Positions 1 to 64,000 of a DNA stretch of 64,000 bases are shown one piece after another (position 1 is the stretch's first letter; the number at the start of each line of letters is the position of its first letter). The notes beneath the pieces are model-generated. The model ran no database searches and was not told the DNA's origin. It saw only the letters and a list, made by a program, of their open reading frames with translations. The stretch comes from Steinernema hermaphroditum (lineage: Eukaryota; Nematoda; Chromadorea; Rhabditida; Steinernematidae). Location: NCBI GenBank assembly GCA_030435675.1, contig CM059623.1, positions 13,300,092 through 13,364,091 of the forward strand, in the 5' to 3' direction. A program made the position numbers and the translations under genes.

Positions 1-949
1 TTGAGAGTGAAAGTATTTCCCCACTTAACCACTCGGCAAAATCACTATTATCTATAATGTCTTACAATGATAGAACGCATTGTGATTGTGACTTAAAAAG
101 CATTCAAACGACACAAAAATGTGTAATTACTCTAGTTTAAGCAAGAAGCCGACAAAGAGAAGGCGAAGCCCTGCTGGATTATGATGAGGAGGTGTTTCTC
201 GACAAACCCAGCAACTTACAAAACTAAAAAGGATGAAAACAAGTTAGTTATGATGGAGTTATGCTCGTTTGCTAGGCGACGTAGAAGTCTTGAAACTGTG
301 AGCAGCAGAACATTCGATCGAGTTTGGAATGCAGAATAGCTCTCGAGAAACTCTAAAAAAGAAATTGGACTATAATCTCGGGATGGTGAATGCGAACTTT
401 TTGGAACGCTTGAACACAACAAGTCGGAAACTGTACAACCCAGACCAGTTAGCGGCCGATGCTACAAGCATTCCAGGTCAGGCCGCAACAATCTAGCAGT
501 GGGTCAAAAACAGCCACAAATACGTGCAAATAGGGGTAGGCGGAGTGCATCAAAGCCGCTCAGGACTCAGAGAAAATGACCAACCCAGAGGCAGTGGACC
601 AACGAACTGCAAAAATACATAAACGTTTGTGTCTGTAAGCATTAAAATGTCTATATCTCTAAGCTTATCCAAAGTCCCATCGCATCACATGCTCAAGGAC
701 GCAACCCAGAAAAGTAACTAAACCAATCAAGACGACTAAAACAGTTCCCTTTCACAATCTTTTCACAATGGTGGGCACCATTGGCGTTTCGGAATTCTTT
801 AATATTTACAGAGCGGGATTCTCGTGGTGCACTTAAAATACGCATCACTTATTCTTCTTCCTATCACGTGGCCCTCTCGTTCCCTTAAAAGAGAAAATCT
901 TCAAAAATCTAAAGCAACTCACATCAAGTTGGAACTGTCTCTGCGACAT
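1..949. other. No gene recognised
   Basis: AT-rich sequence with three heptamers and short random ORFs only. It could be intron of a leftward gene if the exon at about 1.0 kb is real. Confidence 0.4.
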
Positions 950-1400
950 ATCCAAGAAGAAGACGGTACATGTTATCGATCGGTCGGAGGGCAGTCGTTG
1001 GAGGGAGCTCGGATTGAACGACTCCGAATCGCGGACGTTGTAGGTGCCCGAGCCGAAGCGCATCATTGTCATCGTCATGGGTGATGCGGCCGTCCGGCTA
1101 TCGACATAATCCAACGGAAAACAACGAAATTGCGCTCTGCAATTTAAAGAATATTTAATCAGTGAACGAGACAAAGCATCCACGAAAGAGAAAACAACCC
1201 GACGCGCTCCCTTAAAACTCGTCTCGACGAAAGAAAAGAAAATGGCTAATTAGCGCAAAGGGCCACGTGCTAGCCGCCGCTCCACTGCCCCAAAATGGAT
1301 TTTGCCGATGGTCGAGTGCGCAATTCGGGATGCCAATCGGTAGTATTAAGTCGGTTGATTTGTGACGGGTCGTTAGAGTCCGAAGATGGGATCATTTTTA
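950..1400. promoter_or_regulatory. GC-rich island, promoter-like
   Basis: A stretch distinctly richer in G+C and CpG than the A-rich surroundings. It contains a palindromic homeodomain-type core (GCTAATTAGC near 1244) and a CACGTG E-box near 1264. It covers the candidate leftward first exon, so a promoter for that gene is one reading. Regulatory function is inferred only from composition and these short sites. Confidence 0.35.
970..1078 (-). CDS. Candidate first coding exon of a leftward gene
   Basis: Reading leftward, an ATG at 1078 opens a 36-codon frame beginning MTMTMMRFGSGTYNVRDSES and ending at a possible donor (GT at 969-968). About 60 bases upstream on the same strand is a good acceptor-like run ending in TTGCAG, which could be a cis or spliced-leader acceptor. 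It sits in a GC-rich island and codon choice looks coding. The rest of the gene would lie left of the window. The family is not recognised. The same frame stays open past the donor, so the exon end is uncertain. Leftward transcription would put ATTTTTG on the sense strand of this half of the window. Confidence 0.35.
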
Positions 1401-1792
1401 GGAGAAAAACAATTAAAAACTGAGCCATGGATTAGCTCCTTCTTTCAAAAGCATACACATACTTCCAAAACATTTGAATCAGCTGTGCTACCTAACATCA
1501 ACTTGAAGAAAAGATGTCAAAACGTATAAAAAGCAGAGAACACCATAGCATGTTTTGGGGTATTTTCTGACTCTCCGAGGAGACAATAGGCCTATTCCCT
1601 GTTGCAAATCTTCTACATGCTGAGCACTTAGTTCGCCGTAGACTTTCAAAAATTGTATAACTTACTAATCACACCGTGCAGAATGTCTCATCGTACACGT
1701 ACTCACAAAGCATTCACCTCTAAGCAGCTAAAAATGTGGAGTCGTACTATGTATATTGTTCTAAAACTAGAATGCCAATATTAGCCCTAATT

Positions 1793-2353
1793 GCTCAAAA
1801 ACCCAGTGTTTTGAGATTCGTCAAGCTTTCAAACACAATTGACATGAAGCTGCTTCACTTTATGAAGTTGCACAACCTGTTTTGAAACAGCCGGATTACA
1901 GCGCGCCAAAAATTCTATGACATTTACTATTTACGTACATGTATTTGAGCATAAACACGATCTTCCGGAGGTAGTCTGGCGGTAAACGCTTTTGTTGTTA
2001 TCCACTCGCCCCTCAAATGTTAAACCATCCATGGGTTGTGCCTGGATTGCTCAAAAACCCACGTTGTTAAGATTCGTCAAGATTTCAAACGCATTTGCAA
2101 AGAGATTGTTTCATAGTATGAAGTGTCACAAGTACTCCACTTGACTACCACAGTAATGTTAATAGGAAGCAACTACAAAGCCAGCTGAACAGTCAAAAAT
2201 GGATCAACACACATTTACATGTATTTAGCAGACAGGAAATATTTTGCAAGTCATTCATAGCTCTGTTCAGATTGCCGAAATACCCGCTGTTCAGATTCCT
2301 CAAGATTCGAGACACATATGAGATCGAACTGTTTCATTTTATGATGTTTCACA
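1793..2353 (+). repeat. Three diverged tandem copies, about 240 bp unit
   Basis: Copies share a core reading roughly 'CTCAAAAACCCa...GATTCgTCAAGatTTC...' at 1793-1875, 2049-2131 and 2272-2353. The spacer between them also repeats a TTTACaTGTATTT block (about 1929 and 2210). The copies are clearly diverged, so the duplication is old. No coding potential is seen in the unit. Confidence 0.7.
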
Positions 2354-2359
2354 ATCATT

Positions 2360-3559
2360 CACAATTTGAATATCACGGTTATATTGAGAGAAAACAACCG
2401 AGAAATGATCACAAAGAACAAAAGAGAAGAAATGAATATAGCAGAAAGTAAATACTGTACAAATGCACTTCGATTTGTGTCTCCAAAAATCTAGAGGCAA
2501 CAGTTTTTTTTTTGTGATAATGAATTATAGTAGTAACAAAACCGAAAACCCCGGCTAGGGCTACGCACGAAGTTACACTTTACAAAAATGTTTCAATTGA
2601 GATTATTCCGAAGTTTTCGAATACTGCGAGGGCAATAGGAATGAAAGCAATGAGGCTTCCGAAACATTAAAAGTGAAGGATGAGGGAGGCGAAAATGATA
2701 AAATGAACAGTGATACTTAACAGAACTGAAGCAACGGAAGGTCGTTGTCACTTTGTGTATACCTGATTTTCGGGCAAAGCGCATGGCTAGAATGGCGAAC
2801 CTAAATTTCAGACCGGTAGGTCTAAGCCCACGCGTAAACCAAGACTGGATGTTATTTGTGTTATGTAAGAAGAAACAAAAATTCAAATAAAAAATTAACA
2901 AATTCATGAATGGACAGAACATTAGTTCCGAGTCAAGTCCCAGCTTCTTTTGAACTATCCAAAAATAAACAAGCAATCGCTCTCAGTCTCGTCTTGCAAA
3001 TCCCTCATCCTCCGTCCCTTTCAAACCCGCCAAGCATTACAAAATATGAGGTTGAAACATTTCTAATTTTAGTCTTTAAAAGTGAAAGTTTGTTACCGTA
3101 AAGCGGCACCTTTTACTCAAGATAGTCACTGTAGTTCAGCCCACTTTGTAACGCCGGATTCCGCACTCATAAGACATCAGAAATTTGGAGGTATAATATA
3201 TTTTGCTCAACTGTGGACCTCTTCGCTGGGTTCAAAATGTACATGCTGAATATCATTCAAAAATCAGAACAAGGGACAGTGTGCGGGCTGTATGGCAGGC
3301 AAGCGGGAACCTCCCAATCTTTATAATGGCCGGTCAAATACCATTACCAGCATGCTGCTCATTGAAATTTTGATTATTTTGACTCCCGATCGAAATGATT
3401 CACACTTAAAACTTGGAGTACGTGAGATATAAGGGGGATTAAGGCTTAAGGCTGTCATAACAAATTCACTGAATCATCAAACCCTGGCACATCGCAACAC
3501 CCTTGCAACATTGGCAAATCGGCAAAGCGCCCGATAAGCAACGCGAAGATGTCAACTCG
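2360..3559. other. Gene-free AT-rich DNA
   Basis: No exon-like frame with splice sites was found. It holds heptamers at 2484-3258 and one member of the CCCACTTTGT dispersed motif near 3136. The 127-codon leftward frame at 2593-2976 has no homology I recognise and no supporting splice sites. Confidence 0.4.
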
Positions 3560-4200
3560 TATTAAATTCGACACATCTTCTGAGGGTCAAAGACGACGCC
3601 ACTCTCGGCGCCTCCGGGGATTACGCATCCGCGTAATTAGAAGGAAGAAGGCGTGCTGGCAGCGCGGCGTCCGCTCCCCAAAATTTGCATTGAACGCTCA
3701 AATATGAATAATGACGAGGGGGGCAGGACGATTCCGCAGATGTCGCACACATCGCAAAAGGCGCCGTTTTGGCTTGGCGATGAGGATCCATGAAAAGAGG
3801 CGTCGGGATTAAGTGTCGCCGCTCTTCGCGCGGCTAATAGGCTCGAGAGCGCGGTGGAACAAAGGGGCGCCTTGAGATGTGGACGAGGGTGGAGGGCGCG
3901 GTGGGCGCGGAGTACGCGCGCGCCGAAAAGCGGACAAGGGCGGAAACGGCAATCTGTTACAATGTGTGTGCCGATGAGAAAACACTTGTAGAGGAGAAGA
4001 AGAAGCGCGCGGCCGACGGTCCCGTGAGAATTCGAATTTGCACCCGCCGTTTGAAGAGGCCCTCTGATTGGGAGGATAGTTTACAAGTGGGGCGACGGGG
4101 TGCGCGAGAGGAGAGTACACACGCTGGACCAGAAATTGGAGACGTTTTTTGGAGGACGTTGTCGCCGGGATGACAGTTCGGGATCGACGCGGGCACGGAC
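3560..4200. promoter_or_regulatory. GC-rich island with TAATTA core
   Basis: Dense CpG-rich sequence including GCGTAATTAGAAGG near 3630, several GGCGCC/GCGCGC runs and short overlapping ORFs on both strands that look compositional. It has no match to a recognised gene. By composition it is a candidate enhancer or alternative promoter. Confidence 0.3.
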
Positions 4201-7200
4201 AGCCTGTGATTACTGGTGCATGGGGCTACTTGACAGTTTTGATTCCTCGATGAATACAGAAAGGGATCGTACCGAGAGTAAACCCACAAAAGTTTTAAAG
4301 TATCGTTTGGATAGAATGTTTTCCAAAAATATGACGCTGAAGCGTTGTCTACAAAATATGAACTGATGCCAAAAAGATCCAGCTACAGTTTTGCAACACC
4401 TCAGATAAATTAATTCAATAAAAAAAGCCAAAAACAAAATAAACATTGCGTAGAATGAATCTTACTTAAAAAACGAACAAAATCTTCGGCAAATCAAAAC
4501 GACCTCCCCAAAAATTGGGTTTCACCGACAAGTCATATCCATCATTGGGTAGTCAGCACCTCCGTACATACAGAAGCAGTAAAAAAGTTAAAGTACAGAA
4601 AATGGACCCGGGCTAGCGCTGAATCGACACAGATCATAAGCAGTAGTTTCGGTATGTCTTTACCGATGATATTGCGTCAATGTACATAATGTACATCACT
4701 GAAAACGGAAATCTGTTGTTAAAAGGCTGCAAACATTGGTAATCAGTAGCGGGCTATACCTAGGATATGTGACATTATGCAAACATTTGGATTGCAGTTA
4801 CAATGTTACCATTGCAATTTTACCAACACGGCAGCAAAAATTATAATATCCAACTAGTGTTTAGCACTGCTGAACAAATTCAAAAGTAAGTGCCTAGAAA
4901 ACTGCTGTACGGTTTATAACATGCAATGCGTTGCACGCGCCTTTGCCATTGTTTGTGTTGCCTAACGAACAAATGCCTCTCGGTAGGCTATTGTTTGTTT
5001 TTATGAGGACATTAAAACGCTTTAATGCTAACTATCTAAACCTTATAAAGGGGCACATATCCACCGAGCTATCATTTAATTTACCTGTTACTGCAGGCAT
5101 TAGTTTTTCGCTGTAAAATGGTCAAAAATTATCCCACTTCTTCCGTCAAATGCCTAGTTCTCTCCAACACGAGCCTACCTCAAAAGCAATATGTTGCATG
5201 CTCGACCACCCGCAATGACTTTCATTTTCGAACTCTCTAGGTCTCACCACGACCGTTCCTGTCTACGGACTCACTGAATATCATTCTAACTTTGCATCCG
5301 ATATGATCCCCCCTCTCTGATCCCGTCTAGTCTGGCGGGTTTAACTGCTCACGATTGAGGTACCCCACTAGGTTGAGCTTTTTCGCTCCCTCAAACAGCT
5401 GTGACAACACGAATAACGTGTAACGTACAAAAATTACCATATTCTACTGTTTTTAACACAGTATGTAACAACGCGAATTTCTATAAAATTGTGCTTATTT
5501 CAGTGTTGTCTAATGGAACAAAAATGAAAATATATCATACAGTCCCATTGCTCTATGCTGCTATCGTTTACACAATGTTCACAATGAAAAATCGTGCATG
5601 AAAAGCAAAAATGTTGACAACACCTGTCGGAACCTTACGTTGCGTATTCAAAACAATGTACTCGAGGCTGATCATTTCTTTCACACACTTCTTACGTGTC
5701 ATTGATCATCCTATTGAACAAAAATCAACCGAAACAACATATTAAAACCTTATTTGCTTGTTGTATGAGGCTGCTACGGAAAAAGTGTTAGGAACCTCAA
5801 TAAACACACTTTGTAACATATAAAATTTTTGATGTTATCTGATCTCACATTGCTGACATTTCTTTAGGATTACTTCGATCTTAACACGGAACGTTCGTTT
5901 TCATGGTATATGGACAATGGATCCCAGGGGCAATAGAACCCAGTGATATAAATTCTTGCAGCTTTCCCGCATTTTGCTATGCAAGATGGAGCGTAAAAGA
6001 GATGCGTACAGCGCTCGCTTCTAAATTCTCAGCTCGATCCGGAACAAAAATTAACAAAGCAACAAGATAAATGTTCGCTCAACAGTGAATACAACAAATT
6101 GACTACCCGGTGCCAACCAGGTGAACCATACGGAAGCGATATTCGCGCTTGAGAATCCACCAAAACCAAGTGTATTTCCAATCAGGACCACAATGATCAA
6201 ATTTGTACGGTTGTTCAGCAAGCTAGTTAGAAGCTAAAACGAGATAAATTGCAATAGCAACACCCAGCTGATTACAAAAATCCATAAATTTGCGAAGATA
6301 GAAGACTCGTTAATGTCTGGATCTCAGCAGCTACTTGACTGTTCTGCAGTAACAAACCGTTTTATCGATGGACGTGAATTAGATCAAAAGAAGGCTCACT
6401 GTCACATGGCTAGCCGAGTGTTTAAGGAATCGTCTGTGATGAATATTAGGTTTGTCTTGCTTTCAATGCAAAAGTGGTCCAAATGAGATTCTTGCTAAGA
6501 CTATCTTGAGATTTATTGTCCCAGGATCAATGGTCCTACTGGGATCTATTGCTATAAATTATTTCCCTTTGTGTTTTGCACCGTTTATCTTCTGGATTCA
6601 ACGAGATCATGTCGTGTAGGATCTCGTCGTACACGCAAAAAATAGGCAGTGTCACACCTGTCGCCATAGTTGCCAGTCTTCTACTGTCTTACACGCATGG
6701 TAAGCACGGTGTTCGATAGCAGCCCCTCTCCGGCGTCCAGACTGACTACACGCCATTTTTGTGTCTGCGATTATACAGGTGAAGGATGTTATCTTTTCTG
6801 ACGCTCAAAAATCAAATTGTTGTGGCAGTAATAATAAATAAAGGTTAAAAGCCTAATTGCATTTTTCTTACCAGTCCAATTCGAAGACTGGAAGAAAACC
6901 AAAGCGTTCAATAATGTAAAGAAGATAAAATAAAGCAAAACGAACGACCAAAGCGATTTTGTATCGTTAGAACTCTTTACAATCACAAAAGTATGCAACT
7001 GCACCGACAATGCAACTCACGATGGAAGTAGCCAATTAGAAGATTTGAACTCTGCCGTCTGAACTAATCCTGCAAAATGTGAAACTGACAGTGAAATGTG
7101 AAACTTTAGAAGACAGTTTCGACAACAGCCTTCGCCGTGCATGTAGCGTGTATCGCATGTGTATTGGTGTATGTCTCGAACAAAGGACTGGTCGTATACC

Positions 7201-7679
7201 CCGTGTCAATTCCACATCCTTCTTATTAGTCCACTTGACAGTACCGTTTTGTAGTTTTTACAAGTCACAAGACGTTACGTGAATCGTCTGGTATCCATGG
7301 GAAAGGGGCCACAACAGAGAAGTGCGTTCACGAGAAGTGCGTTTTTGAAGTGCGTTCACAAAAATATTCAACCCACCGACAATACTGCCGCTCATGATGA
7401 AAATAGCTCAGAAGAAGACTTGAACGCTGCCGTTTGAACTATTCCCACAAAACATGAAACTAAAACCTAACAAAGTTTAAAAAACATCCTCTCAACCTCT
7501 TTGAATATGACTACCTCCGCGCAATGTACAAAAATACGCTATACTCTTGAAACTAACAAGGATCAACCATCTCCATCAAAGATTAAACGTTCAATTACAC
7601 TTTTTCTATACAATCGAAACGCGGAACTCCCGAGCACAAAATTGCAACGCAATTGAAAGAAGCGCTGAGTGGAACGACT
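4201..7679. other. Gene-free, heptamer-dense desert
   Basis: About 3.5 kb with 14 CAAAAAT and no convincing exon. A short local repeat at 7020-7080 and 7380-7440 (both ending in a conserved GAACTctGCCGTttGAACT-like block) shows another old duplication. Confidence 0.4.
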
Positions 7680-8050
7680 ATAAAAACGAATGAATGGGCC
7701 GCGAATCTCGCAAATCGACGCCTTTCTTTTCGCGAACACGCTCATTAATTCCGCGATAGCGATCTCACCGGGTGCAGGCCTAATGGCCATCGGCGAGAAA
7801 AGAACGCTGAGCCGAAAAGTGCCGGAGGCGAGTAGGCCGCGTACAGCGCCCGCGCGCGTCAATTAATCAGCCAAGCCGCCCGCAACAGTCACTCTTCGGA
7901 TTGAGCGCGGCACCGCACCTGTTCGGGAGTGAGGTCACCGCGGGAGCGGACTGAGGCAGAAACGAGTGTGGGCAGTGTCCCGGCGGGATGATGGACAGCG
8001 GGAAGGAAGTCGGCTACTCGGCTAATGTTGGCGGCGACTGATCGACTAGG
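7680..8050. promoter_or_regulatory. GC-rich island with ATTAAT cores
   Basis: A sharp rise in G+C with CTCATTAATTCCG near 7740 and GTCAATTAATCAG near 7858, plus GGTCACC near 7934. Overlapping ORFs here run on one strand only and lack splice sites, so I treat the block as a candidate cis-regulatory island. Confidence 0.3.
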
Positions 8051-8540
8051 ATTAGTGTTTGTTCGTAGGGCAGGTAACACAAATATGTGCGAAAGCAGAG
8101 AACACTTATTTCGATGGCTGCTTTAGTCGACCATTGCCTGAAATAAAAAAATTCGATTCTTACGTTGTGTTCGCGACGAATTTCACGTATAGAGTAGTGT
8201 AACATGTAAAACAGGGAACATTTCAAAGAATATAATGATTCTCTGAAACTTCGTATAGATACTACATCTACATGCACAAAAATTCGATTTCGTGACTGAC
8301 ATTATCAGGTCCCCATCTTGCAGTATCTACGTCATTAAGCACGAAACGATTTCTAACGATATGACATTCGGCATTTGTGTTTCAATTCCATTGACAGTAG
8401 ACATAAAAGGGCCCAAAAATACGGTTTAAAGAGAACCAGCGATCATGTCGCCAAAAAGGACCCATAATGCGAGCATTCTCAGAAACCAACATTCCCTTTG
8501 ATGCCGCCGAAATCAATCTACTGTCTTCCCGGCTCCATCA

Positions 8541-9036
8541 AGATGAAACGATTTAAAAGCACTCAACATTTTTGCATATGAGTAAATACCGTTGAACACA
8601 GCATAGCACACTACAAGAGGCTACTGATAAGAACTGTGTAAGTACTATATCCAACATCACTTCCGCCCCCGTCCCCAACAAAAATATCAAACAAGTGAAA
8701 ATTGAAAGAAGACGAAATATTCCTGTCACAGAGCATGCAGAAGCACAGCATGTACAATAGGAAAATAAAACAACTTATTATGAATATTCCTAGAAAAGAA
8801 TATACCACGTAATCAAAAATTCGACTAGAGGACTGAAATTACTAGGTCTTCATTTCCTATCTAAGTGAATAAAGATGAAACGATTTCTAACAATTTGAAG
8901 GCGAAACATTTTGCATATTTATGTGTAAAAACGCTTGAATACATTATAGCATACTACAATAAGTTGCTGAATATTCTGATAAGAACACAGTGTAAGAATC
9001 GAACACCAACTCATCCCCCACAAATATACCAAACAA
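8541..9036 (+). repeat. Diverged tandem duplication, about 330 bp apart
   Basis: 8541-8702 (AAACGATTTAAAAGC ... CCCAACAAAAATATCAAAC) reappears at 8873-9036 with substitutions. A partial third copy starts near 8281, sharing an AAAATTCGAtTt...GACTGA...TTA block with 8817. Each full copy carries ACAnTTTTGCATAT. Confidence 0.65.
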
Positions 9037-9879
9037 GAGAAAACCAATCACAAACAAACACATCTCTAGCAATCATGTTCGACATCAGTTTGAGAACATA
9101 TAGTCAGAAATATCATACCAAAATTGCAGGAATGTTGCCAAATCTCGACATCTTATCCAGCCCACTGGCTGTACTTGTCCAGTTATTACATTTTGAAAAC
9201 GGCTGTGAAGCACTCGCGTAGACCGAATGAGAGACCTGTAAAGGTCATATTGGTCAATCTTGGGCAGTAGACCTTCGCTATCTATACAAGTTAGACGCTT
9301 CTTGGCATAATACCAACTTAATATAATTCTCCACTTCGGGACGAAAAGGAAAAAAAAACAAAGAGGGGGTAAGTGATTGCAAACCTTCTTGTTGTCAAAC
9401 TATCAGAGGATCAAGGAGGTCCGGCGCCAAAATGTTTCACGTACGTACTAATTGACATGTCTGAATATTGACTTGGCATACTGTTCTAATGATTCATCAT
9501 TCCGCTGATCCGACTGTTTGTAGCGTCCTGTATCGTAAATCCACTAAAAATTAAAAAACGACAGACGACGCTTGTAACGACATGTGTCTTTAAATTATGG
9601 TTCAAAACAGTTACGGGCTTCAAAAATTCAGTTCTCATTAAAAAACATTGAAGAAATCCTGAGGACTTTGGAGCATACAAAACTACTAATAGACAGACGT
9701 ACACACGTACAGAAATACCTCTGCATTTAAAGCCTACATTTCAAAAACTTCCTAAGCAAAAACTCAAAGCTGATCGAACCGTATCGGTAACACTAATGAC
9801 GAATTTAACTACAATCTTACACTATATAGACACAACCATGATTCAAGAGAAATGAAGATGAAAAACAAGTGCACAGTTT

Positions 9880-10330
9880 ACATAAAACGTTATGACCACT
9901 AAAACCCACCGAGGAACGGAAAACGACAGCGGCCATAAAGCTAATACTCGTTTCCCGTAGCTCGTTGCGCAAAGTCGCTCAAAACAAAACGATTGCAGCG
10001 GTTGTGCGCGAGCGAAAACAACGCTCCGTGAACAAACAAAAACAATGTTCGAACTCCTTATCGCCGCTTTGCACCTCGGCGTCGCCACGCCATATTTACC
10101 TATGCTGTAAAGTGGACATCGAGCCGCCCGCCAGATAGAGATCGGTGAAGGCGCGCGCATTCATCATTAGGTGACCAGCAGGAGTGCAGCAGATGTTAAT
10201 CTGTGGGTCGTAAAAAAGTGGCCGTGGGACGAGAGTTTGCCATTAGTCACGCTTGGAAATCTAGATAGACGCCGAAATTGCGGCAGGAATGGAACGGATT
10301 TGACGACAATGAACAGAAGGTCTACAGAAA
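9880..10330. promoter_or_regulatory. Moderately GC-rich island
   Basis: A block with GCGCGCGCATTCATCATTAG near 10150 and conserved-looking non-repetitive sequence. No gene is recognised. Regulatory status is a guess from composition. Confidence 0.2.
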
Positions 10331-12699: not shown

Positions 12700-13190
12700 A
12701 ATTATCATCCATTCATAGGCGGATGTTCCGGAGTTTCTCCCAAGCCACGCATCCATCATCCTCTCCCCCGGCGGGATCGGCCGAACACACGCAGCGGACG
12801 CGCGCTGGTCCTCTTCCTCTTGTTCTGGTGGCCGCTGAGAGGGCCGCAAATCGAATCCGATTTAGGCAATTTGCCGTCGCCGCCACCGCAATATGCGTGC
12901 ACTCGCTACTTAGGCGCGCAGCGAAAAAGCGAACGAAATGGTTTTGTTCGGCAGCGGCAGCGCGCGGTGAGTGTAAAGTCAAATGGCGGAAAAAAGGGAA
13001 GAAGATGGAAACCATTAAATTACGTGGCAAAAAGGTCGCGCGCCGACGCCGTAAGACCGCCGAAAGTGGAAACGAGTGCGGCGAAGATACAACTGCAATT
13101 GCACCCATCGTGCTTCAGTTGATTGAACAAATCGAGAAAGGAAGAGAGAGCGAGAAGAACCTTCGTGGTCACTTTACAGAGGCGGAAGTA
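12700..13190. promoter_or_regulatory. GC-rich island with long non-coding-looking ORFs
   Basis: CpG-rich block. Open frames run on both strands (169 codons + at 12690-13199, 131 codons - at 12713-13108), both Arg/Ala-rich as expected from composition. No domain or splice logic is visible, so neither is called as a gene. It may be a promoter or enhancer island. Confidence 0.25.
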
Positions 13191-51442: not shown

Positions 51443-51444
51443 TA

Positions 51445-54148
51445 TATCACAGATTAGTTGTTGGTTATCTTCTTTCTTCGGCACTGGGCACGATATCCAA
51501 ATGAAAAGTGGCGATCCCATTAGTTTGCGCGGCCATCGGAAAGAATAAGAGGCTGGGTGCTCTTCGATTCGGCTAGTGGCGAGGGTGGAGTCGGGTGAGG
51601 GAAACTGGACTCTTGGTCAAACGTTGCGACTATGACTCCTTTGTATTCTAAGCCTTCTTGGAGCCGGGGGCGATCATTACCCCACCAACGATAGCCATAA
51701 TGAATGCCAAATTATCTATAAGCGGCTAGTGTATGATCGAGACAATACTTTTCCTGGGCAAATGGTAGTCGTGTGTGAAGCAATAATGTAAGATGGAGCT
51801 ATTCGCCATGTTACGCGCTCACCACGGCTGCAAACTCAATCGACACAATCTTTCCACTTTGTGAACATCTTTTGCGTTTTCTGATAAATTATCTTCCTGG
51901 AGTTAGGCGCGTTTACTTAGCAATTTTTATTGTTCATTTGTACGCGGTGTCTTAAACGTTTCCTTGCATGACGTGGGCTGGTGCCCTTTCGAAAATTTAT
52001 TAAATTATTGAATTACTAAATTGTATTTGATGTAACGAGTGAGCAGCAAGAAAATTACATGGTTGTTGATCTCAAATTGGATCAATTGGATCCTGTGAAC
52101 TTGATTGCAGCCACCTGTTCAATGACGCCATGTAATCTTGTGATTTATTAACCTCAATGCAATCCTCGCAAGGTACAAGTCGCATGTTTAGGGCAAATAT
52201 AAGTAATGTTTCTAAATTTTAAAAGGGGTTATATAATTTTTGCACTTAGAAAGATCTACGTTGCAGTCACTGTGGAATAATCTCTTCCGATTAGAAAAGA
52301 GTTCTCTGAACTACGTGTTCTGGCTCCAAATGCTGCATGTCTCGCTCTGGAGCACAATTTGCATTGGGAATGTTAGGTCATAATGCTCACATGTACTGTG
52401 ATAGGAGAGTTCTTGATCCAACCATACTGGTTCTTTGGACAGTTTTTTGATTTTGTTGTGCTGTATTTGATAGAAGTTCAATTTTTGGGGGTAGTCTTAG
52501 TATAAACTCAGAAACTAAACTCAATTTTTGTGATCATATTTTTAAAGTTGGAGATAGGTTCCTTTAGTATGTTAGTATGTCGGATGTATATGTTAAGGCA
52601 ATGCTATTTTCCACTCTTGGCCGACCACACGTTTAGCAGCCATGCGTACCAGATGAGGGTTCCGTGTCGGACGGAATGCTTTTCGCCAATGTTTAATGAA
52701 GCGACTAGCAACGCCTTTAAGAAATGCTCAAGTAAAGAAGGGTTCTTGATGTTTGGCTCATGGTTCCCGTTTAATCACAGTACCCCTTTGCTTTTGGTAG
52801 CAGAACCTTTCTGCCGCATTCGCAACGTTCTTTCTAGATTGTGTTTACGTCAAGCGTACAGTTGTACCTTCTGATGCAAAACAGCTAGTCCTGTGCTGCT
52901 TTAAAATGTCGTTCTTGACGTATTAGAAACTACGATAACATCCTGACCCCACTCACGAAGCACTTTTGCATTAATGGTTCGAAAATATTGTTTATCTTCT
53001 ATGTAAGCACCGGAATACGAACGATTTGTTTATGCTGCTGATTACAACCTTGTTCGTTTAGCTGGCGCCAATTTCTGTACTACATGGTCTGCTCTTGGTA
53101 AACATACAAATTCAAATAGCTTTGATCTCATGTATTTTTTTTGTGCACACTTTGCAATCTGCATAATGTTTTTACAGGTCTTGCCGGACTTATGTGGTGA
53201 TATAATTGTGAGTTAGCTGATTACAGAATAGCTAAACATAGAAAATCCTTTGATCATTGTGGCGATCCACGTGCGGAAGCGATCATCTGCGCTTAACCCT
53301 TTTCGTCATGAGCTGAGTCACCACATATCTTCCGAAGAGCTTTGCTTAAAAGGGATTGAACTCAACTCCTTACGATGCATTTGTGGAATTTTTGCCATTA
53401 CAGAGCGACATATGGATCCAGTAATGCCACATCGTACCTTGGAACAGGCTTGTATTTCCGTACTCTTCCATATTGTTCATTGGCTCCGGAGCCGAATCTA
53501 GGCCGTTCACTAAAGGATCGATTTTTTATCCTTGGCACAATTCTGATGCTTCTTGTGTTTCATCTGGTAATCGTATACATAAAAGTTACTCACCAACATA
53601 CGGAACACATTCTGTCGATATTCGTCGTTTTTCTGCTCAGAAGATAGCAAGTTTTCATTCATCCTTATCGACTTCCTGCCCTGGTGCCAAAAATAGTTCA
53701 TGTGAGTATAGGGTGTTTACACCTATGGGAGTCGAATCCCCTTGCCGACATTTCAATTGATTGACACTTCCGCGCATAATATGTTGTTGTCGGCGTGCTG
53801 AGGTAATACATGGTCGCTTCTATGTTCGCAGAAAATATTCTGGAGGGGGCTTTTAGATATGAACGCTAATGGATCCCCTCAAGTGGAAAGAGTGCACGAT
53901 CTATAAAGAGATACTTCGCTGCATTCCATAGCAACTCAAAAACAACACTTTTCTGTCATCACTGAGCTGCTAAATTCACTGCTTGAGTTTGCAATGATCG
54001 TTCATAAATGCATTTTTGTACATTTCTGTATACATCGGTGTTTTGCATCCAATCATCCAATCGCCGAGTGAGTTCGTTATTCTTTTGACGGTGTCCATTG
54101 GATATGGGCGAGTATCTGGTATACCACTTCTGCTGTATACCACGGTCT
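51445..54148. other. T-rich desert
   Basis: No exon supported. Four ATTTTTG between 52236 and 53388, plus 54012, and one CAAAAAT at 53688. Confidence 0.4.
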
Positions 54149-54345
54149 TTCATTTGTGCCCCCAGCGATCGGTCGGGTCGTCCACTCGCTCTCGCTCTCT
54201 CTGAGGCTGTCTGAGCCGAATGAGTTAAGTGAGCGGTCGTTCTCGGCCGTCGTTGTTGGCGCAATGATCGCCCCGGCTCCCAGAAGGCCTGGAACACCAG
54301 GGAGCCGTAGTTCCACCGTCTCGCCAAAAAGCCCGTCACGACCGC
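54149..54345 (+). repeat. Dispersed element, longest copy
   Basis: Joins the block also seen at 47786-47830 with a hairpin block (CGGCTCCC...GGGAGCCG) matching those at 30.9 and 57.2 kb. Stem position 6 is C-G here and T-A in the other two copies, so pairing is kept. The downstream CGTAGTnCCACC is shared. Confidence 0.6.
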
Positions 54346-54479
54346 CCGACTCTACCCGCGCCGCCAGAGAAGCCGAAGAAGCGTTGCAACTCAGAAGTCC
54401 GCGCCGCCAGCCGAACCGAAGATGACTCTCCGCTCCGTTGGCTCTGCTCCACCGCTATTCCACTTCCGGAATCAGCTCT

Positions 54480-54610
54480 TCACGACTTCGATACCCGCGC
54501 AAACTAATGGGAGCGCTGCATTCTATTCGGATTCGTTTGCTCCACCGAAATCAGAAGAAAATCAGCGACCACGGTGTGACTATGTTCTTCTTTGTGTATA
54601 TATATGAGAC
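54480..54610 (+). repeat. Copy of the CCCGCGCAnACTnATGGGA repeat
   Basis: Related to 20530-20640 and, more weakly, 14430 and 15940. It sits directly after the hairpin element copy and a CG-rich stretch. Confidence 0.5.
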
Positions 54611-55780
54611 GTCCTGCACGGCGTAAGCCGTTGATTCGGGAAGATAAATCGTGTAAATCGCTGTATACCACTGACGAGCATGACCTATTTTAGCGATCAT
54701 AAATTGCCTGATTTGCCTAGATTTTTTTCGATATGCTGATGTTTTTCGATATTTTTCCATGTCCATATGCTGAGTGTTGTAATGCGCACATTTAGTCTCT
54801 CTGTCGCCTCCTATCTGATCTCTTATTTTGTGCCGTGTTATTTGTATGCGTGTATATTTTTGAGTACCATCATTTTTGCAGTTCGCATAGTGTGGCCTTC
54901 AAGATTCTTCTTTGTTTGTATACAGTTATATTAACCAAGTGTTAAGTCTTCCTTAGTTCTGCTTCCTGCGTCAGACAGCAGGCAGTAAAGAACTTGACAC
55001 AAAGAGCAATTTAATAATCGAATCCTCGATTTAGTGATTTTTGAACACACTATGCATAGGGAAGTTTCGCTCTTCTAGAGCAGTTTGATTTAATTAATGT
55101 GGAAACCCAGAATATTGAGTCTGCAGAAGTCTGTTTTGTGATCTATAATTCTGCGCTTCTTAACATTCAGTTTGGCTTCAGCTTCTTCATCTAACGTTAA
55201 ACGTAGGCGCGTGAGATAACTATACTGTAAATCACGATTGCATGTTGGAATAGACCAAAAGGTTTAAACAAGAATTTTTCATGAAAACAACATTCACAGG
55301 TCTTCATGCTGTATCGTGTTTAGAGAACACTTCAAAAGCTATATTTTTTAGTCCAACATTCAGATGCCTTAACCGATTTGTGTTCAAAGTATCATGGTTG
55401 ACCCGCTATATTTGCTTATTCGGTTTATGAAAATTTTTGACGACGTTTCGAATGACTATCTTTGCAAAAACACAAAACTTGGTGGCATAGGCCTTAATGC
55501 GGGGGTCCAATTATACTTCGGCTCAAATCTAAGTCGATTATATTACTTTCTAACATTTCTGCCTTTCTAGTATCACTGATAGACGGAATTTAAAAAATCT
55601 AGTAGCTTTCTTGCTTGGTCATCCTTCTACTAGCGTGCTCGAATTCACTTTTACCATAGTCGTCATCTTTAAGTTTAGTACGAACACACTTTCCAAGTTT
55701 TTTAAGGCAAATTTACATCAGTCACACATAGGCCAAGTAGCGACTACCTCTATCAACCTCTGATCGGTTTGTTTTCCAAA

Positions 55781-55820
55781 AGGCTATTGTGTACCCCGTA
55801 AGGCTATTGTGTACCCTATC
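55781..55820 (+). repeat. 20-base tandem duplication
   Basis: AGGCTATTGTGTACCC starts both 20-base units; the copies differ only at the last few bases. Confidence 0.85.
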
Positions 55821-56022
55821 CTTATCACTTCCTTTGTTCTTTCCATTTCCCCATTTCACGACTATCAATGGGAAAGGGCAATGGAATCGTTTCGCTTTGA
55901 TACTGCGGCTGTTCGCATCGTCGTCTGTTTGCTGAGCGATTAAAGCGATTAGAGGTACTTTGTGAGCGTGTGGGCGTCCATCAGCCAATCCTCATTTGCA
56001 TTAGTCGTTCCTCGCCCGCAAC

Positions 56023-56556
56023 ATGAGTGCTGTCACAAGAACCGTTGTTTCGTATGAATTTGCATTTTTGTTGACAACAAATGTGTTTGTTAGCTCGGTC
56101 GGAGATTGGTCTTTGAAGAAAAGTGTGACAGTCTATGACAGGTTGGATTCCGGTATCATTTTTGTTCCAAAAGGTAATGGTGTCTGTTCTACTTGAAGGA
56201 AAGATCACGAAACACTTATGCTAGTTGCACTATTTTGGACATTAAGTTGTTATTTTTCTCAGAGTTTCGGGTTTTCCCTTTAGAGTTCAGCCGAAGCCGA
56301 GCATGTATTTTGTGGTCTGAGCTACTTATTGATAAACGTACGGCGTAGTAACGTGGCAAACGGAACTGACTACTATCGGACATGGATTCGCTTGGCAGAA
56401 AATTGCCGACTTCAAGGTATCGACCTGCTTGATGACTTAGAAGAATCTTTCACCCAATACCATTTGTATTTCATCCAACGTTTTCGGGTCGGTTGTATGG
56501 TTGGTTGTTTAGGTTTAGGCATTTACGTTTTAGGATTTTTGGTCGCCTGGTTGTAA
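56023..56556 (+). CDS. Tentative small membrane protein
   Basis: A phase-consistent model is 56023-56173, 56263-56337 and 56399-56556 (introns 89 and 61 bases; first acceptor TTTTTCTCAG), 127 residues. It starts MSAVTRTVVSYEF and ends in a hydrophobic helix (MVGCLGLGIYVLGFLVAW). The last 90 codons also read through the second intron without a stop, so the exon structure is unsure, and a second in-frame acceptor 21 bases on is possible. Three ATTTTTG heptamers fall within coding parts, which is unusual and lowers confidence. No family recognised. Confidence 0.3.
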
Positions 56557-57224
56557 TCTCTGAATTCAGTGATGAGTTTCAGTCATAGGGGATTCTGAAT
56601 GGTGTAGATTTTATGGTAAGAGCCGACAGACCTTTCCTGAAGGAGATTTAAGAGGTGTCTTTTTGTGTCTTTCTTATAATTGGGCCTGAAAGTTTATCTT
56701 GCTTCACAATTTTTGCCGAACGAAGATATCTATAGTTCTTTTCCACAAATTTTAGCTTTCTCCGAGTCGGCATTTGGAAACTAGGCAACGGTTGCTTTTA
56801 TTTGCATCTGCAACGTAGCCATATATTTTTCTATTTATATATGTTGTTGGCCAACGGATATAGCCGGAATGGTGGGATCCAACTTTACTAACAATGGCAT
56901 GCAGAAAAGTCCTCTCATGTCTAGACTAACTCAATGACGTTTTGCGTCTGTAACCATGCATAAAAACTGTCTTGCTGGACAGTTGCCCATTCGTTGGAGA
57001 AGATGTTCACTGCTGTTCACTACCATTTTTGAATAATCTTATGGTAAAATCCTCTAAGTCAGCTGCTGGGCTTTCCCGATGTTGAGAATTGGGAAAGCTA
57101 TGGAGACAATCTGCAATTGTAGGAAGATTAGTGGTTCTTATTTCTAGTTATTTGTGGACGTTATTCGTGTCGCGGTGGCGAGCGGTCGGTCCCTCTCTGA
57201 GTGTCTGGTTGGTCAAATGGCAAA

Positions 57225-57317
57225 CCCCCGTGGCAGTTGTGACTGTTCCGGCTTCCAGATGGAATTGGGACACCCGGAAGCCGTAGTCCCACCACCGCTG
57301 ACAACAAGATGTCCGAC
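57225..57317 (+). repeat. Hairpin-bearing dispersed element, copy B
   Basis: Closely matches 30873-30965, including the perfect stem CGGCTTCC...GGAAGCCG and the following ACAAC...AGATGTC. Upstream GGCGAGCGGTCGGTCC...CTCTGAGTGTCTGG loosely matches the 54.15 kb copy. Confidence 0.7.
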
Positions 57318-58189
57318 GACAAGAAGCATACACGTAGCCTACTATTTGCACACCTAATGATCATTAGCTGAGCTCATTTGCCGATGAGTTCCTAACAATA
57401 TCGTACTCGAACCACTCATTAACGTTGTATGTCCTAGGAACAGTTCGAGGAGATCGGTGCGAAGAAACCACAGACGACGAGATGTAAAGTCCGAGTCAAA
57501 ATTCTTGTATGCTAAGCAACTAAGCAGTAAACTCTTTAAATTTCGCCTATATAAGTCCTAGATTTATGTGAATCAGTTTTTCTCTGTATTAGCTAGATTT
57601 TTGTGAGGGTCTTCCGGTTGGGACCCGCACTATATAGTATCTACGTCGATAGTGCCTGGTATTACAGCAGTGACGATTTATATTTATTTTACCACACATG
57701 TCGTGAACGGTCGTCTTAGCCTTCTTGAAGCTGAGTTTCATTATTTTGAATGACTCTTAGGCCAGGCAACTCGACTTTTGATACAGATTTCCTTTCCACC
57801 AAGGCCTATCCTCTCAGGAGAGTCTTGATGTTTCAAATCAACTGTATTTTTGTACCAACATGTCAACACAGATCAATGGTAACCTTTCGTACACTTTTTT
57901 TTGGTATATAATTATAAGGTTGTTTATTTAGGCGCCAAATTCTGGGACAACTATAGTTATGCTGCTATATCTGGATTCGTTGGGACAACTAAGATTTTTG
58001 TTCGAACACATTTTTGTATAAACTGTTTTGAACCGGGATGAATGTATTTGTGCATTTGAGAGGATCTTTCTGTTTTCGACGACTGCAGAATCATAAACCA
58101 TAACAGGTCATAAACTATAGTCCAGGGAGCGCTTATTTGTAAACATCCTCTCGATTTCACCTCATTCTCACTGATCTCCAATTGGCCTC

Positions 58190-58540
58190 GATGTGTAAAT
58201 TCGCGTCCGCTTCCTGCACATCCGCTCGGATTATACGGGAACGCAACCGGTCAGCGCCACCAAAACACATAGATTAGCGTTGAGTCACCGTCAGCAGCGC
58301 CATCACCCTTTTCTAAGGGTCGTCGAGTGTTCTGCACTTTCTTTCATCCCTTTGTGCGCGCGACCCTCTCTGTACACAAACCGAAATGCAAGTTGGCGCG
58401 CCACACGTGTGCGTCTTTCGAAAATCAACCGTTCCCACGTGCCGTCTCTGTAGGATTTCGTAATTTTTGTCCCTCTGTAGCAGTTCGGTTTCGTCATCCA
58501 GCGGAGATGTTTGTTGTTGAGCATCCAGGTGGGTGGGCGT
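58190..58540. promoter_or_regulatory. GC-rich island
   Basis: CpG-rich block with GGCGCGCCACACGTGTGCG near 58396 (E-box core) and CCCACGTGCCG near 58435. Open frames on both strands look compositional. Candidate regulatory island. Confidence 0.3.
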
Positions 58541-58605
58541 TTCTTTTGAATTAGTGGACAGTCATGGTTAGGCAAACAGTTTGGTGTCTTTTAAGAAGCA
58601 AGAAA

Positions 58606-59890
58606 TGCTATAAATCTTGTGGTCGATGTGCGCTATTTTCTTGAGACTTCGTGCAGGCTGAAAACAGATCGAATTTTTGGCTTCCAGAGCCCTCATTTCC
58701 ATATGCAACTATAGTTTATGCATAGAATACAGCTTCGCAATAAGTTTGGACTAGATCAATTTCGACAAAAATCTCGATTTTCTGATATTGGACGAAATTT
58801 GTCTTAAACTGATCGTTATCATCTTTCCGTAATTCTTATAATTCACGGACTTCAGAGATTTTCAGTATATTTTCCTTGTTTGCTTTGTAGGCTTTATTTG
58901 ATTGCCAATACATGCAATCTTAGATCGGTTACAAAGTTTGCCAAAGACTCCTTTGGGTTCCATTCTCTGGGAAGTTAGCCACACCATAGAAAAACTTTCT
59001 TCATTTAAGCATTTTTGAAAGGAAAGGTTTTACAATGTTTTAAGTATTTTCCTGTTAAAAAGCTCATTTGCACGTTGGATCCTCAGGCTCATGAATTGCA
59101 GTTCTCAAGAAGCCCATTCGATTTAATTCAGTGTTTGGCTACATCACTGAACCATCAGGTTGTAGAATGAAAGAGTAACAAGTTATAAAATAAGACTTAA
59201 ACGCTGTACGCAAAACAAAACCATGAAATACTATAAATCTTTTGGACTACGCACGCTATTTCTTGAGATTTCCTGCCGAGATTGAAAATAGATCGAATTT
59301 TTGTAAGTTAGCGATATTTTTATTGTGTTCCTTGCTTTCTATAAAAAGCGATAAGGTTTAACAACATCAATCTATTTGAAAATCTCGAAACATCATCATT
59401 CCCATTAGCTGCAGTACTCAAGAAGAAAATTGCAGGATTTTAAGTCAATTTTTAGGCTCAGTAGTCGATTTGTCATGTTTCAGAATAAAAGAATAGTCAT
59501 AGTCAGTCAAGAATAGTCAGGTTGTTTCGTAATTTTTGGCTTCAATTTGTGTTGATAGTTTCACGATTTCTGTAAATCTTGCAATTCGTGAACTTCAAAG
59601 ATTTTCAATGTATGTTCCTTAATTTTTTTGCGTGCTTTCTTGATTATATGGATTTCGCTTGATCTTAGATTGCTTACTAATTGCAATTACCAATTTTACC
59701 AGATGCTCCATTGTGTTGCATGGTCTACGCGGAACGTTAACTACACGATAGAATCTTTCTTCGTTTAAGGATTTTTGTAATTACTGAGAATGTAACGAAA
59801 GCATGCTTCTGTAAGAAACGTTCATTTGTGTAGCATCTTTAGCCTAATAGATTGCAGTTCCAGGAATGATAAGTCAGGTATGATAAGTCA
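58606..59890 (+). repeat. Diverged tandem duplication, about 630-740 bp unit
   Basis: 58606-59162 resembles 59228-59890 in order: GCTATAAATCTTnTGG, GATCGAATTTTTG, CTTATAATTCnnGnACTTCA, TTAGATnGnTTAC, TAGAAnnnCTTTCTTCnTTTAA and GATTTTTG-type heptamers. Several ATTTTTG sit at matching places (58673/59297; 59011/59771), so some heptamers were copied with the unit. Confidence 0.65.
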
Positions 59891-60362
59891 GGAATGTTAA
59901 GTCAATGTTTGAGTGGTATCACAACGCATTCTATTGGGTTGATGCATTGAAAATGAGCCCCTTGGTAAACATCCTTTATTTTTACAATATTTACTCCTGG
60001 GGTATAATTGATTGGTGCGTTGTTGAGTACATTTAGCTCTCACTCTACATCATCATTGGCGGCTTGTCCGTTACATTCCTCTTGATGTTGCGGGTCTATT
60101 TTGTTTTTATGATCATTTTTTGGCACCTCGAGATGGCGAAATACGAAGTGATGTATGGACTTCCTATGGTAGCATTTGTGTGATGGACGGTGACTGCCTT
60201 CTACCACGTACATCCTTGGTTCTTGCCTATTGAATGCACCTACAGCTGCGGTCGTCGTATATCACAGCATGGGCTAACTCAAAAAGATGGCCGTTTCGGA
60301 TCACCATGTTCCATCAACTCCAATGTTTCCAAATGGTTAAGTACTATAACAGGGAACGGGGA

Positions 60363-60465
60363 CATGCAGCAGATAGCCATCTCTCACAGCTATCATGCCC
60401 ACATAGTGACTTCACGAGCTCATTTCTACTTTAAGGAAAAAGAGGCCAAATGTAGAAAAAATGGC
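60363..60465 (+). pseudogene. Coding-like fragment shared with 28.0 kb
   Basis: Encodes AISHSYHAHIVTSRAHFYFK and EAKCRKN, matching the minus-strand frame at 27983-28086. The open frame runs 60190-60549, starts without ATG and ends TGA. It may be an exon of an unrecognised gene or a repeat fragment. Confidence 0.4.
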
Positions 60466-61984
60466 CCTTGTATTCTTAAAAAATACGACTCTCCGAGGCC
60501 GTGTATTTTCAAGTTGACCCCCACAAAGGCTCTCCACTTTGAGCTGTGAGACTCATGTTCGTTGTTCGTATAGAGCTCTGTTAGCTCTATCTTACTGTCA
60601 TCTGTACGCGTCAGTAAATGAAGATATCAGAGAAAGCCACTGAGAATAAGGTGAAGAGGTCGAAAATTTGACCAAAACCATTTTTCGATTTTAAACCTCG
60701 GGTACTCTACGAACGAGGAATCCGAATGCGGGCCATAAAGTGGGCTGAAGTTGCTGATGCTAGCGGCAAATACCTTGATTAGATTGTGTGCCTTTTTGGT
60801 AATAAATATCTACTTTCAAAAAGGCTCATTTATTATGCATCAACCCAATACATTTCGTTTCCACCTCCTACTTTTCGTATAATTGCGTTGTAATAGTAAT
60901 GATGCTCGTCTTGAAACTAAAATCGTAAATGAAAAGAAGTCGGTGGGTTCTGATAAAATCGCCGTTATCAAAGGCCTATAATCTGTTTGGGTCTAGTTGG
61001 GGAGTGATGGCCTTCTTGGTAAGTAAGTGCTTCGCTCAACGTCTTCTGGGAGTCTCACTCACTCATTTTCTTTTCTCGAAACGTGTTTGATTTCCTGATA
61101 TTGCAAAGCAGACAGCAGTGATTCGTGATTTTGTTTACCGCGGCTCGTTCAACTCTTATCGAATAAGCTTGCTCTTAATGTTCACATAGACTGTTATGGT
61201 GGGATTTTGGAAAGCTAACGGTTGCGTATTGCGTTGTGTGAACGTGTGTAAATCAGCGGTCCAACAAATTCACATCTGTTACATAACGTATAATGTGCAT
61301 ATTCCGTATAAGGTCCGTTTTATTTTTGATCTAAGCTCGTATAGCGAGGAATTAATGAGGTCTGTGCAACTAAACGTTTTACTTAGATAGGGTATTCTTG
61401 TTTATCTATACCGCGCGACTTCCCGCGATTCTATCTTTCCTAAAACGCGGTTTTTAGTGATATGGTCCATGTTTCACAAAAATGGTTCTTCACAGAGAAA
61501 GAGAGCATCTTTCTGCACTATGTGACATTTATATATCCAGTAATATCTTTTGTATCTTTTTCTTTTTATCTTTTTTTGCGCATAAATTGACTGGGACTGG
61601 GAAGAGAAACTCGTATCATTTTTGGACTGGATTCGCGAATTATTGCATTGCTATGTATAGCGAAAGTAAGCCCTGTGTATTTTAAATTTAGCATGATAAA
61701 CCTTCCCAACTTGTTGTGCAGCTCCAGACCACGTCACTTCCCAGTCGTAGTTGACCTTTCGATTTCCGATCTGGTCGAATGCACACACTTCCCTGAATTC
61801 AGCGTTGTTTGCGATAACGACTTACTCGCCTTTGTGACTCATCGCCGCCGTTGTCTCCCCTTCACTACCAGATTTTCGTTTTTGACTTTTATGATTTCGC
61901 GCGCGCGAGTGTATGACTAAGCGCGAAGAGTGTGTTGTTTGCTCAACGAGCTCATTTTAAGATCAGAATTGAACCAAAGCCTAA

Positions 61985-62106
61985 ATGGGCGACCATGTCT
62001 TCCGTGCAAGCACGTCGACGACTACGGTAACAGAGACGGAACGGTTTCAGCTGGCACGCCAGGACGCCAGGACGTCGGGGAGCAGCCGGAAGAGTCCACT
62101 CGGCAG
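61985..62106 (+). CDS. Candidate first coding exon of a rightward gene
   Basis: ATG at 61985 opens MGDHVFRASTSTTTVTETER and runs 40 codons to a donor CAG|GTCAGT at 62106-62107. Codon use and sharp GC rise look coding. Same donor form as the candidate exon at 43.6 kb. Domain not recognised; downstream exons would lie beyond the window. Confidence 0.4.
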
Positions 62107-62899
62107 GTCAGTGCAAATGCATGTGGTCAAGCAGTTAGTGGTGGTGGTCTTTGTTGATATCTTTGCAATATTTCTGTCCCAAATAAGTACCGAGTACCAA
62201 GTCGGTTTTTTTATTTTTGTCACCGACCACATAAATTTGTTGGGCAGTTAACTAATTCAGTAATTCTGTCATGTACATTTTTGTGCAGGTTAGTTAATCC
62301 AGTCCAGTCTAGCATTAGAATAAAAGAACCAATGTTTTAAGTTGGAATATTTGTGGAAATATTTCTTTCTCTTCTTCAATGAGTGCTGCGCACGGATTTT
62401 TGCAAGAGTGTTGTACATTGGCTTCGCTTGGTACCTGTTCTTAATATCAATCTGATTTTCATTGCTTGCAGCTCAGTATGTATAGGTCATCATAATAGAT
62501 ATCTGTCCTGTATGTTTTGCTTGTGTTTGGTATAGTGAACATTAAACTAAAATATCACTTTTACGTTCGTTGGATGCTTATTCACTTACTCATTTCACTT
62601 ATTATTCTTTGACAGGAGCTTCGTAAACCACCGGAGAAATAAAAAGTAAAAATATCAATGTTCGGTTATATATGGCAGTCCGAACCCAGACGTTTGTCAT
62701 CGGAGGACTTATCGAGCTCTGCTCGATACGCTTTAGGAATCTAGCCAAACACTCACTATTACATAAAAACGTTACGTTATTCGTTTTGTAGCTGCTCTAA
62801 TTTCTGACCAATGACTTTGCAACTGTACAGCTCCTCGTACCGATTACACGTCACTTTCTTCTATCAAATTCGCACCCTTATCTCCGGTCCCTTTTCCAA

Positions 62900-63460
62900 T
62901 TTTTTGATGTCATTTCTCACCTTCCGTCCACCGTCCAAACTCTTACTATTGACACAGTCATCGAGATAACTCCGCTGGCGTTGACTCACTCATTGACTCA
63001 TCCACACCGGCTACACACGAAAGACACACGATGTCGTCGCCGTCCGCTTGCACAATGCGACGAAATATTGCGAACTGCTTTTTCGACACACGGCGGAAGA
63101 CACGTGCGCCCACAGCAAAACACATTTCCGCACACGCACTGATCTAGGATCGGTCGACCGTCCTTGAGAAGCGATTTTGAAATCATTTCGACACGTTCCC
63201 AAAAGGTCAGCGGTGCACTCCGATGGACTTATCTCTAGCGGCGACGAAGACCAAAAGACTGTAGCGTCATGTAATTGGCCGACAGGTGAGAGGTGACGTG
63301 ATTTATTTGCAAAGCGTGTACTCGACCGAAGTGACGTAGTTTTTTTGGCGAGGATACAATGCCGCCGAGTGGACCGGAGTGAGTGATGACGTGTGCCATT
63401 GGGGAGAGTTATGTGGCAACCTGTTTGAGGTGACGAAATGACGGATGAGGTAAAAGTTAA
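62900..63460. promoter_or_regulatory. CpG-enriched island
   Basis: CGACACACGG and CGTGCGCCC-type sequence with a 173-codon leftward frame (63011-63532). That frame is Ser/Arg/Thr-rich without domain or splice sites, so I do not call it a gene. Candidate regulatory region. Confidence 0.25.
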
Positions 63461-64000
63461 GCGAATGTGCTTGACGGAAATAGACACAAAAATAACACGC
63501 GTGACGAGGTTGACATCAGCGTTTTGACTCACCTAACTGTAAAGGTTATGGCTAAGCGTCTAGTCGCCGAAAACATATGTAAAACATTCGCCATTGAGTG
63601 ACACTTTCGATGATGCGATCAAGATAAAATCAGACGGAACGGTGTAAACAGATGTGTTCTTTGCTTTGTGGAACTATCGACCCTTTGTTTCGTTCTTTCC
63701 TAGATCCATATCAAGGCCACATGTGCTTGTCTCAAGTGCGTCATCAATAAATAGAGTTCTCTGTTCTGTTAAAAGTGCTGACGAGGATTACATTTTTGAA
63801 GTTCGGCTTTCTATGATTTGCCCTACGCTCTCCAGAGGTGAACGAATTCTCATTCAATTCTCATGAGCATGAAGAGGCACAGTATCACATGGTATTCGGC
63901 CGCGTTGTCTTGGCCTCGGTGCAGAGCCCGACATCAAAGTTAAAGAGGATTATCTCCTTGATAACGACAGGAACCCAGAAGACCTCACCACTGGTTAAAA

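Follow-up and report, generated by a model that had tools for sequence, protein, structure and literature searches.

A heptamer oriented along the sense strands of two divergent genes in the nematode Steinernema hermaphroditum

Introduction

What makes a seven-letter word keep one orientation over tens of kilobases of a worm genome and then take up the other? The question is raised by 64,000 nucleotides of contig CM059623.1 (hereafter the window; positions are counted from its first letter, and negative ones lie to its left) from Steinernema hermaphroditum, a clade IV nematode. Here the heptamer CAAAAAT, or ATTTTTG when read on the opposite strand, is abundant and strongly polar. The first part of the answer lies in the genes: the switch in polarity sits between two divergent and conserved genes, the orthologue of ptp-1 running leftward and that of tir-1 running rightward, and ATTTTTG follows the sense strand of both.

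The polar domain and its exact word

Split at 27,200, the 161 copies in the window stand at 61 CAAAAAT to 10 ATTTTTG on the left and 11 to 79 on the right (Fisher P = 4e-22). The first-pass annotation had counted 62:10 and 10:79, from which we differ by a single copy at 27,203, right beside the split. Among the heptamers of the window CAAAAAT ranks top for strand polarity with a score of 9.4, and the runner-up (6.9) is an overlapping word. Over the full arms the count is 210:25, which is rank 1 among 8,153 heptamer pairs, and the next ranks again overlap CAAAAAT.

The sharp organisation claimed for this polarity holds up in 264 kb of context, where the pattern forms a bounded domain of two opposed arms between about -24 and 75 kb. 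Heptamer density climbs at about -24 kb and remains high up to 18 kb; past a central gap it is high again as far as about 75 kb, now on the other strand, and outside the domain it is at background level. The arms are similar in length (some 43 kb to the left and 41 kb to the right of the central gap) and hold one ATTTTTG per ~370 bases. Between them, from 18.4 to 33.95 kb, copies are sparse and the strands balanced, at 7:7 in 15.6 kb. Because the centre is both motif-poor and balanced, the switch is a gap about 16 kb wide and not, as had been proposed, a point at 26.2-27.5 kb. The counts do agree with the claim that the copies point toward 27 kb, yet they are better described as ATTTTTG heading away from the gap along the sense strand of each gene. 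The "desert" of the first-pass annotation is an incomplete description, as coding exons of ptp-1 and tir-1 sit in both arms and at their outer ends.

To describe the word itself, we used an oriented set of 164 kb with CAAAAAT on top, comprising the window with its surroundings (104 kb) and, from other blocks of the genome, six pieces of 10 kb, which were picked for their motif pairs and are not a random sample. The set holds 425 copies of CAAAAAT; the flanks predict 36.6, and the opposite strand has 39. The exact word thus reaches 11.6 times its expectation (part of this excess being owed to A skew), whereas the 21 single-mismatch words lie at about 0.8 to 2.6 times and the forms with four or six A show no strong rise. 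These one-letter neighbours rule out A-richness or slippage as the explanation and confirm that the specificity goes beyond A-richness, as had been suggested. The surroundings of CAAAAAT, read on its own strand, add little to the word (a G at -3, a T at +7, and positions +8 to +30 rich in T and poor in G, all weak), and a longer consensus is therefore rejected. Copies on the same strand are seldom less than 40 bp apart (11 observed, ~37 expected).

Several simple origins could be discarded as well. In 502 same-strand pairs separated by up to 400 bp, the copies showed no phase at 9-12 bp. An/Tn phasing is thereby ruled out, and with it the 10-bp signature of periodic An/Tn clusters (PATCs). The heptamer is not transposon cargo either: the six spans of transposon or repeat sequence within the arms, 3.8 kb in all, hold no copy. 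Nor are the arms an inverted duplication of one another, as only four short matches connect them. No Rfam family reached its gathering score in the window.

With the motif masked, the ATTTTTG strand shows an excess of T over A (skew 0.07) and no G/C skew. The first-pass annotation was right that the polarity is real, but it left this domain-wide skew unseparated from the heptamer. The skew spans both arms, persists however far from the motif one looks, and shows no correlation with motif density (r = -0.04). On the left it passes the last dense motif and reaches about the end of ptp-1. Here it is confined to the domain, with most flanking bins near zero and some not; one stretch at 96-108 kb is skewed and has no motif polarity. 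As the skew outruns the dense motif, transcription rather than the motif would appear to be its cause.

The two divergent genes

The genes were identified from open frames read at the ends of the arms, protein searches, and mapping of full-length proteins and their exons. The left gene, QR680_014559, is a minus-strand orthologue of ptp-1 (PTPN3/4) with PDZ and phosphatase domains, whose annotated protein of 737 residues has no FERM domain. Following the word leftward exposed the missing part: in tblastn searches with nine FERM-bearing relatives, four FERM exons of ptp-1, at 1,072-923, about -0.8 to -1.3, -3.2 to -3.9 and -10.6 kb (to about -10.8 kb), were matched by 6/9, 9/9, 9/9 and 8/9 of them, respectively. 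A longer isoform of QR680_014559 may be annotated, perhaps too long for the protein search. The right gene, QR680_014566, is the tir-1/SARM1 orthologue on the plus strand, with coding exons from 61,985 to 83,690.

Counted by gene part (with approximate exon limits), the word is found in introns and in the long flanks upstream of them. The ptp-1 introns, which lie mostly left of the window, hold ATTTTTG 67 times sense and 6 times antisense in 30.4 kb, and the 17.3 kb upstream of the first ptp-1 exon found (1072-18400) hold it 53 and 8 times. For tir-1, the introns give 22 sense to 8 antisense in 18.3 kb, and the 28.0 kb upstream of the first annotated coding exon (33950-61985) give 70 to 8.

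Recurrence across the genome

The polarity is not an isolated fluctuation of this window. The whole assembly contains 20,128 + 20,165 copies of the heptamer on its two strands, compared with 8,816 + 8,722 for the reversed word. At a gap of 276-284 bp, a range chosen since it is rich in the known domain, genome-wide pairs are in the same orientation 329 times (171 + 158, some of which are tandem repeats), as opposed to 58 convergent and 51 divergent pairs; the reversed word, as a control, gives 7 + 8 same-orientation pairs.

Heptamer pairs are clustered on a megabase scale in few chromosome regions: C1 13.2-17.2 Mb, C2 1.0-1.7 Mb, C3 0.85-3.02 and 12.0-13.3 Mb, and C4 12.0-14.4 Mb. Together these blocks make up about 12% of the genome and contain 57 of the 75 pairs at a gap of 204-205 bp, although their limits were taken from the very pair lists on which they are scored. 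On C1, among the first 100 of the 329 places, the strands alternate over tens to hundreds of kilobases.

In other blocks, too, coding sequence can be found on the ATTTTTG strand. This is the case for a nuclear-receptor zinc-finger exon in one of them (L030), and for two coding-like frames without a Pfam name in another (L029). The latter also has a U1 small nuclear RNA (snRNA) gene within the motif block, again on the ATTTTTG strand (5436-5600, +), with the Sm site AAATTTTTGCG.

A possible signal in the nascent transcript

How could a word be read along the sense strand of introns and upstream flanks? We give about an even chance to the reading that ATTTTTG, placed in sense within the early introns and the flanks before them, acts as an AUUUUUG signal in the nascent RNA. 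The single orientation, the sense strand in both genes, the sense placement of the compact gene QR680_014565 within the right arm and the genome-wide excess of same-orientation pairs all speak for it. Since word and T-over-A skew in the flanks (17 and 28 kb) match those of the known introns, these flanks probably belong to the transcripts as 5' untranslated introns.

The candidate reader, meeting its word roughly every 370 nt, would be a U-rich-binding protein or the elongating polymerase itself, because no link was seen between the word and RNA folding, splice words or, beyond a weak excess, poly(A) words. At low confidence, its role may be to keep long units transcribed and intact, possibly by blocking premature 3' cleavage or cryptic splicing. 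A second role may be tied to a need set by the chromatin of these blocks, by analogy with what has been proposed for PATC introns in C. elegans. Going one step further, the thousands of AUUUUUG copies could amount to a polarity code in its own right, from which a machine learns its direction of travel through long genes in a few blocks, which is a more speculative idea that we hold only tentatively.

Critically speaking, a number of observations weigh against a signal in the nascent transcript. Within the two genes, the word is missing from the 3'-most introns (1:2 in one ptp-1 intron of 3.9 kb and 4:3 over 5.8 kb of tir-1 introns) and the left arm stops within an intron; intron length alone is therefore not the determinant. 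The exon spans of ptp-1 hold four sense copies, those of tir-1 none. Splice and poly(A) words near the copies show no clear bias past composition, and folding of the RNA around them has no effect. Elsewhere in the genome, another block (L033) has an astacin gene (Pfam E 2e-10) on the CAAAAAT strand, antisense to the word, preceded by what looks by eye like a second gene on that same strand. Such antisense compact genes may be nested inside longer genes, but no host gene was found in L033. Finally, five Argonaute genes lying no more than about 35 kb from a listed motif pair were inspected by hand: two fit the sense rule and three do not.

Some versions of an RNA signal are disfavoured by the copies themselves. 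Accessibility of the RNA was ruled out over 150 sites, and a poly(A)-site unit was rejected on the weak excess of AATAAA in the 40 bases upstream (15 vs 8).

Alternative explanations

The heptamer might instead be a DNA-level polarity mark for a replication, recombination or loop-extruding machine, similar to KOPS or Chi in bacteria. A short exact word that is co-oriented over tens of kilobases alongside a composition skew is what such a mark would look like. The like length of the arms on either side of the gap fits as well, as do the compact genes of both directions within polar stretches. We nonetheless consider it unlikely, as arms and skew track the two genes in this window and the skew is largely limited to the domain. 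Chromosome conformation data (Hi-C) for S. hermaphroditum are reported to show no X-specific topologically associating domains (PMC12629237), which says little on autosomal arms.

A promoter for small RNAs was favoured at first and was weakened once ptp-1 and tir-1 had been identified. Here CAAAAAT would be the directional core promoter of thousands of RNAs resembling PIWI-interacting RNAs (piRNAs), a clade IV counterpart of the C. elegans Ruby motif, antisense to the host genes. The megabase-scale clusters, the T-rich and G-poor stretch at +8 to +30 and the scarcity of close same-strand copies are in keeping with this, and a precedent comes from S. ratti, also of clade IV, whose 21-22U RNAs are clustered over 1 and 2.7 Mb (PMC9203780, in part). 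However, the Ruby core (GTTTC / CTGTTTCA) is unenriched, with CTGTTTCA found 4 and 6 times vs 5.0 expected. A start signal at fixed distance is weak, with YRNT and T peaks of which none dominates (best YRNT 47 vs 26.1, z 4.3), and a domain-uniform skew is not expected of very short transcripts. The literature, in the excerpts cited, points the same way: intronic piRNA loci of P. pacificus are sense about as often as antisense (PMC6436959), clade IV is reported without PRG-1/PIWI (PMC4323106), and the 21-22U RNAs of S. ratti are described without an upstream motif (PMC9203780). The genome itself has 91 Piwi-domain matches, not sorted into clades; a Piwi_N profile search gave no match, and the control for that search was also silent. 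Taken as a whole, we see a small chance for such promoters.

A third option is an intronic chromatin element, the Steinernema counterpart of PATCs, which would shield genes in repressive regions from silencing and whose orientation would be a by-product. The intronic and upstream location and the restriction to few blocks suit this idea, but the copies have no 10-bp phasing and an element acting through DNA shape should need no strict single orientation, leaving it rather improbable.

A neutral origin of the polarity, through strand-biased mutation in transcribed DNA, is very improbable. T/A skew and word do agree in domains and in sign. Against this, the strong rise is limited to the exact seven letters (425 vs 36.6) and spares single-letter variants as well as the A4 and A6 forms, the skew is independent of motif density, and the stretch at 96-108 kb is skewed without being polar.

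Transcripts bearing Sm cores on AUUUUUG as a U2-type Sm-ring site, an explanation favoured after the small-RNA array and likewise weakened once the genes were identified, can be given next to no credence: the U2-type site has the same seven letters (PMC12359035, in part) and the U1 gene of this species has the site named above, but ring assembly is described there as requiring a 3' stem-loop, of which none was seen beside the copies (nor is there excess stability in the flanks), and only 157/417 copies have the preceding A of the ring-bound AAUUUUU of U4 (PMC4756616, in part).

Other features of the region

The coordinates of the features are collected in Table 1. The gap contains frames resembling transposons along with short open frames, the latter possibly genes; the frame with the glycoprotein-like domain probably comes from an endogenous element.

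Table 1. Features in and around the window (strand + or -; positions in window coordinates)
Feature	Position	Strand	Basis or remark
Left motif arm, ptp-1 introns and 5' flank	1..18400 (on to ~-24 kb)	ATTTTTG on minus, sense to ptp-1	Motif map, counts, skew
First FERM-coding exon found, ptp-1 (PTPN3/4) orthologue	923..1072	-	tblastn, 6/9 relatives
Motif-poor gap	18400..33950	No strand	7:7 copies in 15.6 kb; Pfam matches
Long open frame, marginal phlebovirus-glycoprotein-like domain	20707..22674	+	Pfam E 2e-5, just under cut-off
MADF-domain frame and DDE_Tnp_4 transposase frame	31338..33558	+	PIF/Harbinger-like transposon
Right motif arm, 5' flank and tir-1 introns	33950..64000 (on to ~75 kb)	ATTTTTG on plus, sense to tir-1	Counts
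Compact three-exon gene QR680_014565	34518..35227	+	Sense to right arm
Open frame, paired-type helix-turn-helix and DDE_3	50267..51409	-	Tc1/mariner transposase-like; no heptamer inside
First annotated coding exon of QR680_014566 (tir-1/SARM1 orthologue)	61985..62110	+	Protein search, exon mapping
Tandem duplication of 4.2 kb (C3)	95854..104304		99.98% identical

The tandem duplication is either very recent or an assembly effect. Elsewhere, CAAAAATCGTCATTTTA units spaced 17 bp from one another form a short tandem repeat at several sites on C1-C5, frequently as facing arrays some hundred bases from each other; this is a separate satellite that also holds the heptamer. Immediately to the left of the C1 block, two Piwi-domain matches that score identically lie in opposite orientation 12 kb apart (C1:12994868-12995794, minus, and C1:13006620-13007546, plus), and they are likely an inverted duplication of an Argonaute gene.

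Implications and comparison with known systems

Long introns and repressive chromatin are problems that worms meet with non-coding sequence, and PATCs are the known case. If a signal in the nascent transcript is indeed what the heptamer provides, an exact oriented word per ~370 bases would offer a second answer, and a far simpler one. In practice, raw sequence may, through the heptamer, reveal which way transcription runs and where long gene models lie hidden, as the FERM exons illustrate. A limited literature search, covering titles and the starts of abstracts, showed no such oriented element in nematodes among the papers listed.

The bacterial KOPS and Chi are polar oligomers whose orientation is set by the direction of replication or translocation; like the heptamer, they are short exact words that keep one orientation over long stretches alongside a composition skew. 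The heptamer differs from them in belonging to a eukaryote, in having arms of about 40 kb that follow divergent genes, and in lacking a G/C skew. In snRNAs a purine follows the Sm site; the copies, unlike U2-type Sm sites, have neither a flanking stem-loop nor a preference for a following purine.

PATCs are An/Tn runs phased at ~10 bp that guard against silencing in the germ line. The word resembles those of C. elegans in being non-coding, intronic and from a worm, and PATCs have been proposed as needed in repressive chromatin (PMC7725773, in part). It departs from them as one exact word in a single orientation, here without the 10-bp phasing. The Ruby-motif (type I) piRNA loci of nematodes, on the other hand, resemble it in that short directional motifs occur by the thousand, either clustered over megabases or, in P. 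pacificus, within introns (PMC6436959, in part). Unlike in those loci, the word is another one, no set start distance is seen, and the strand tracks the two genes here.

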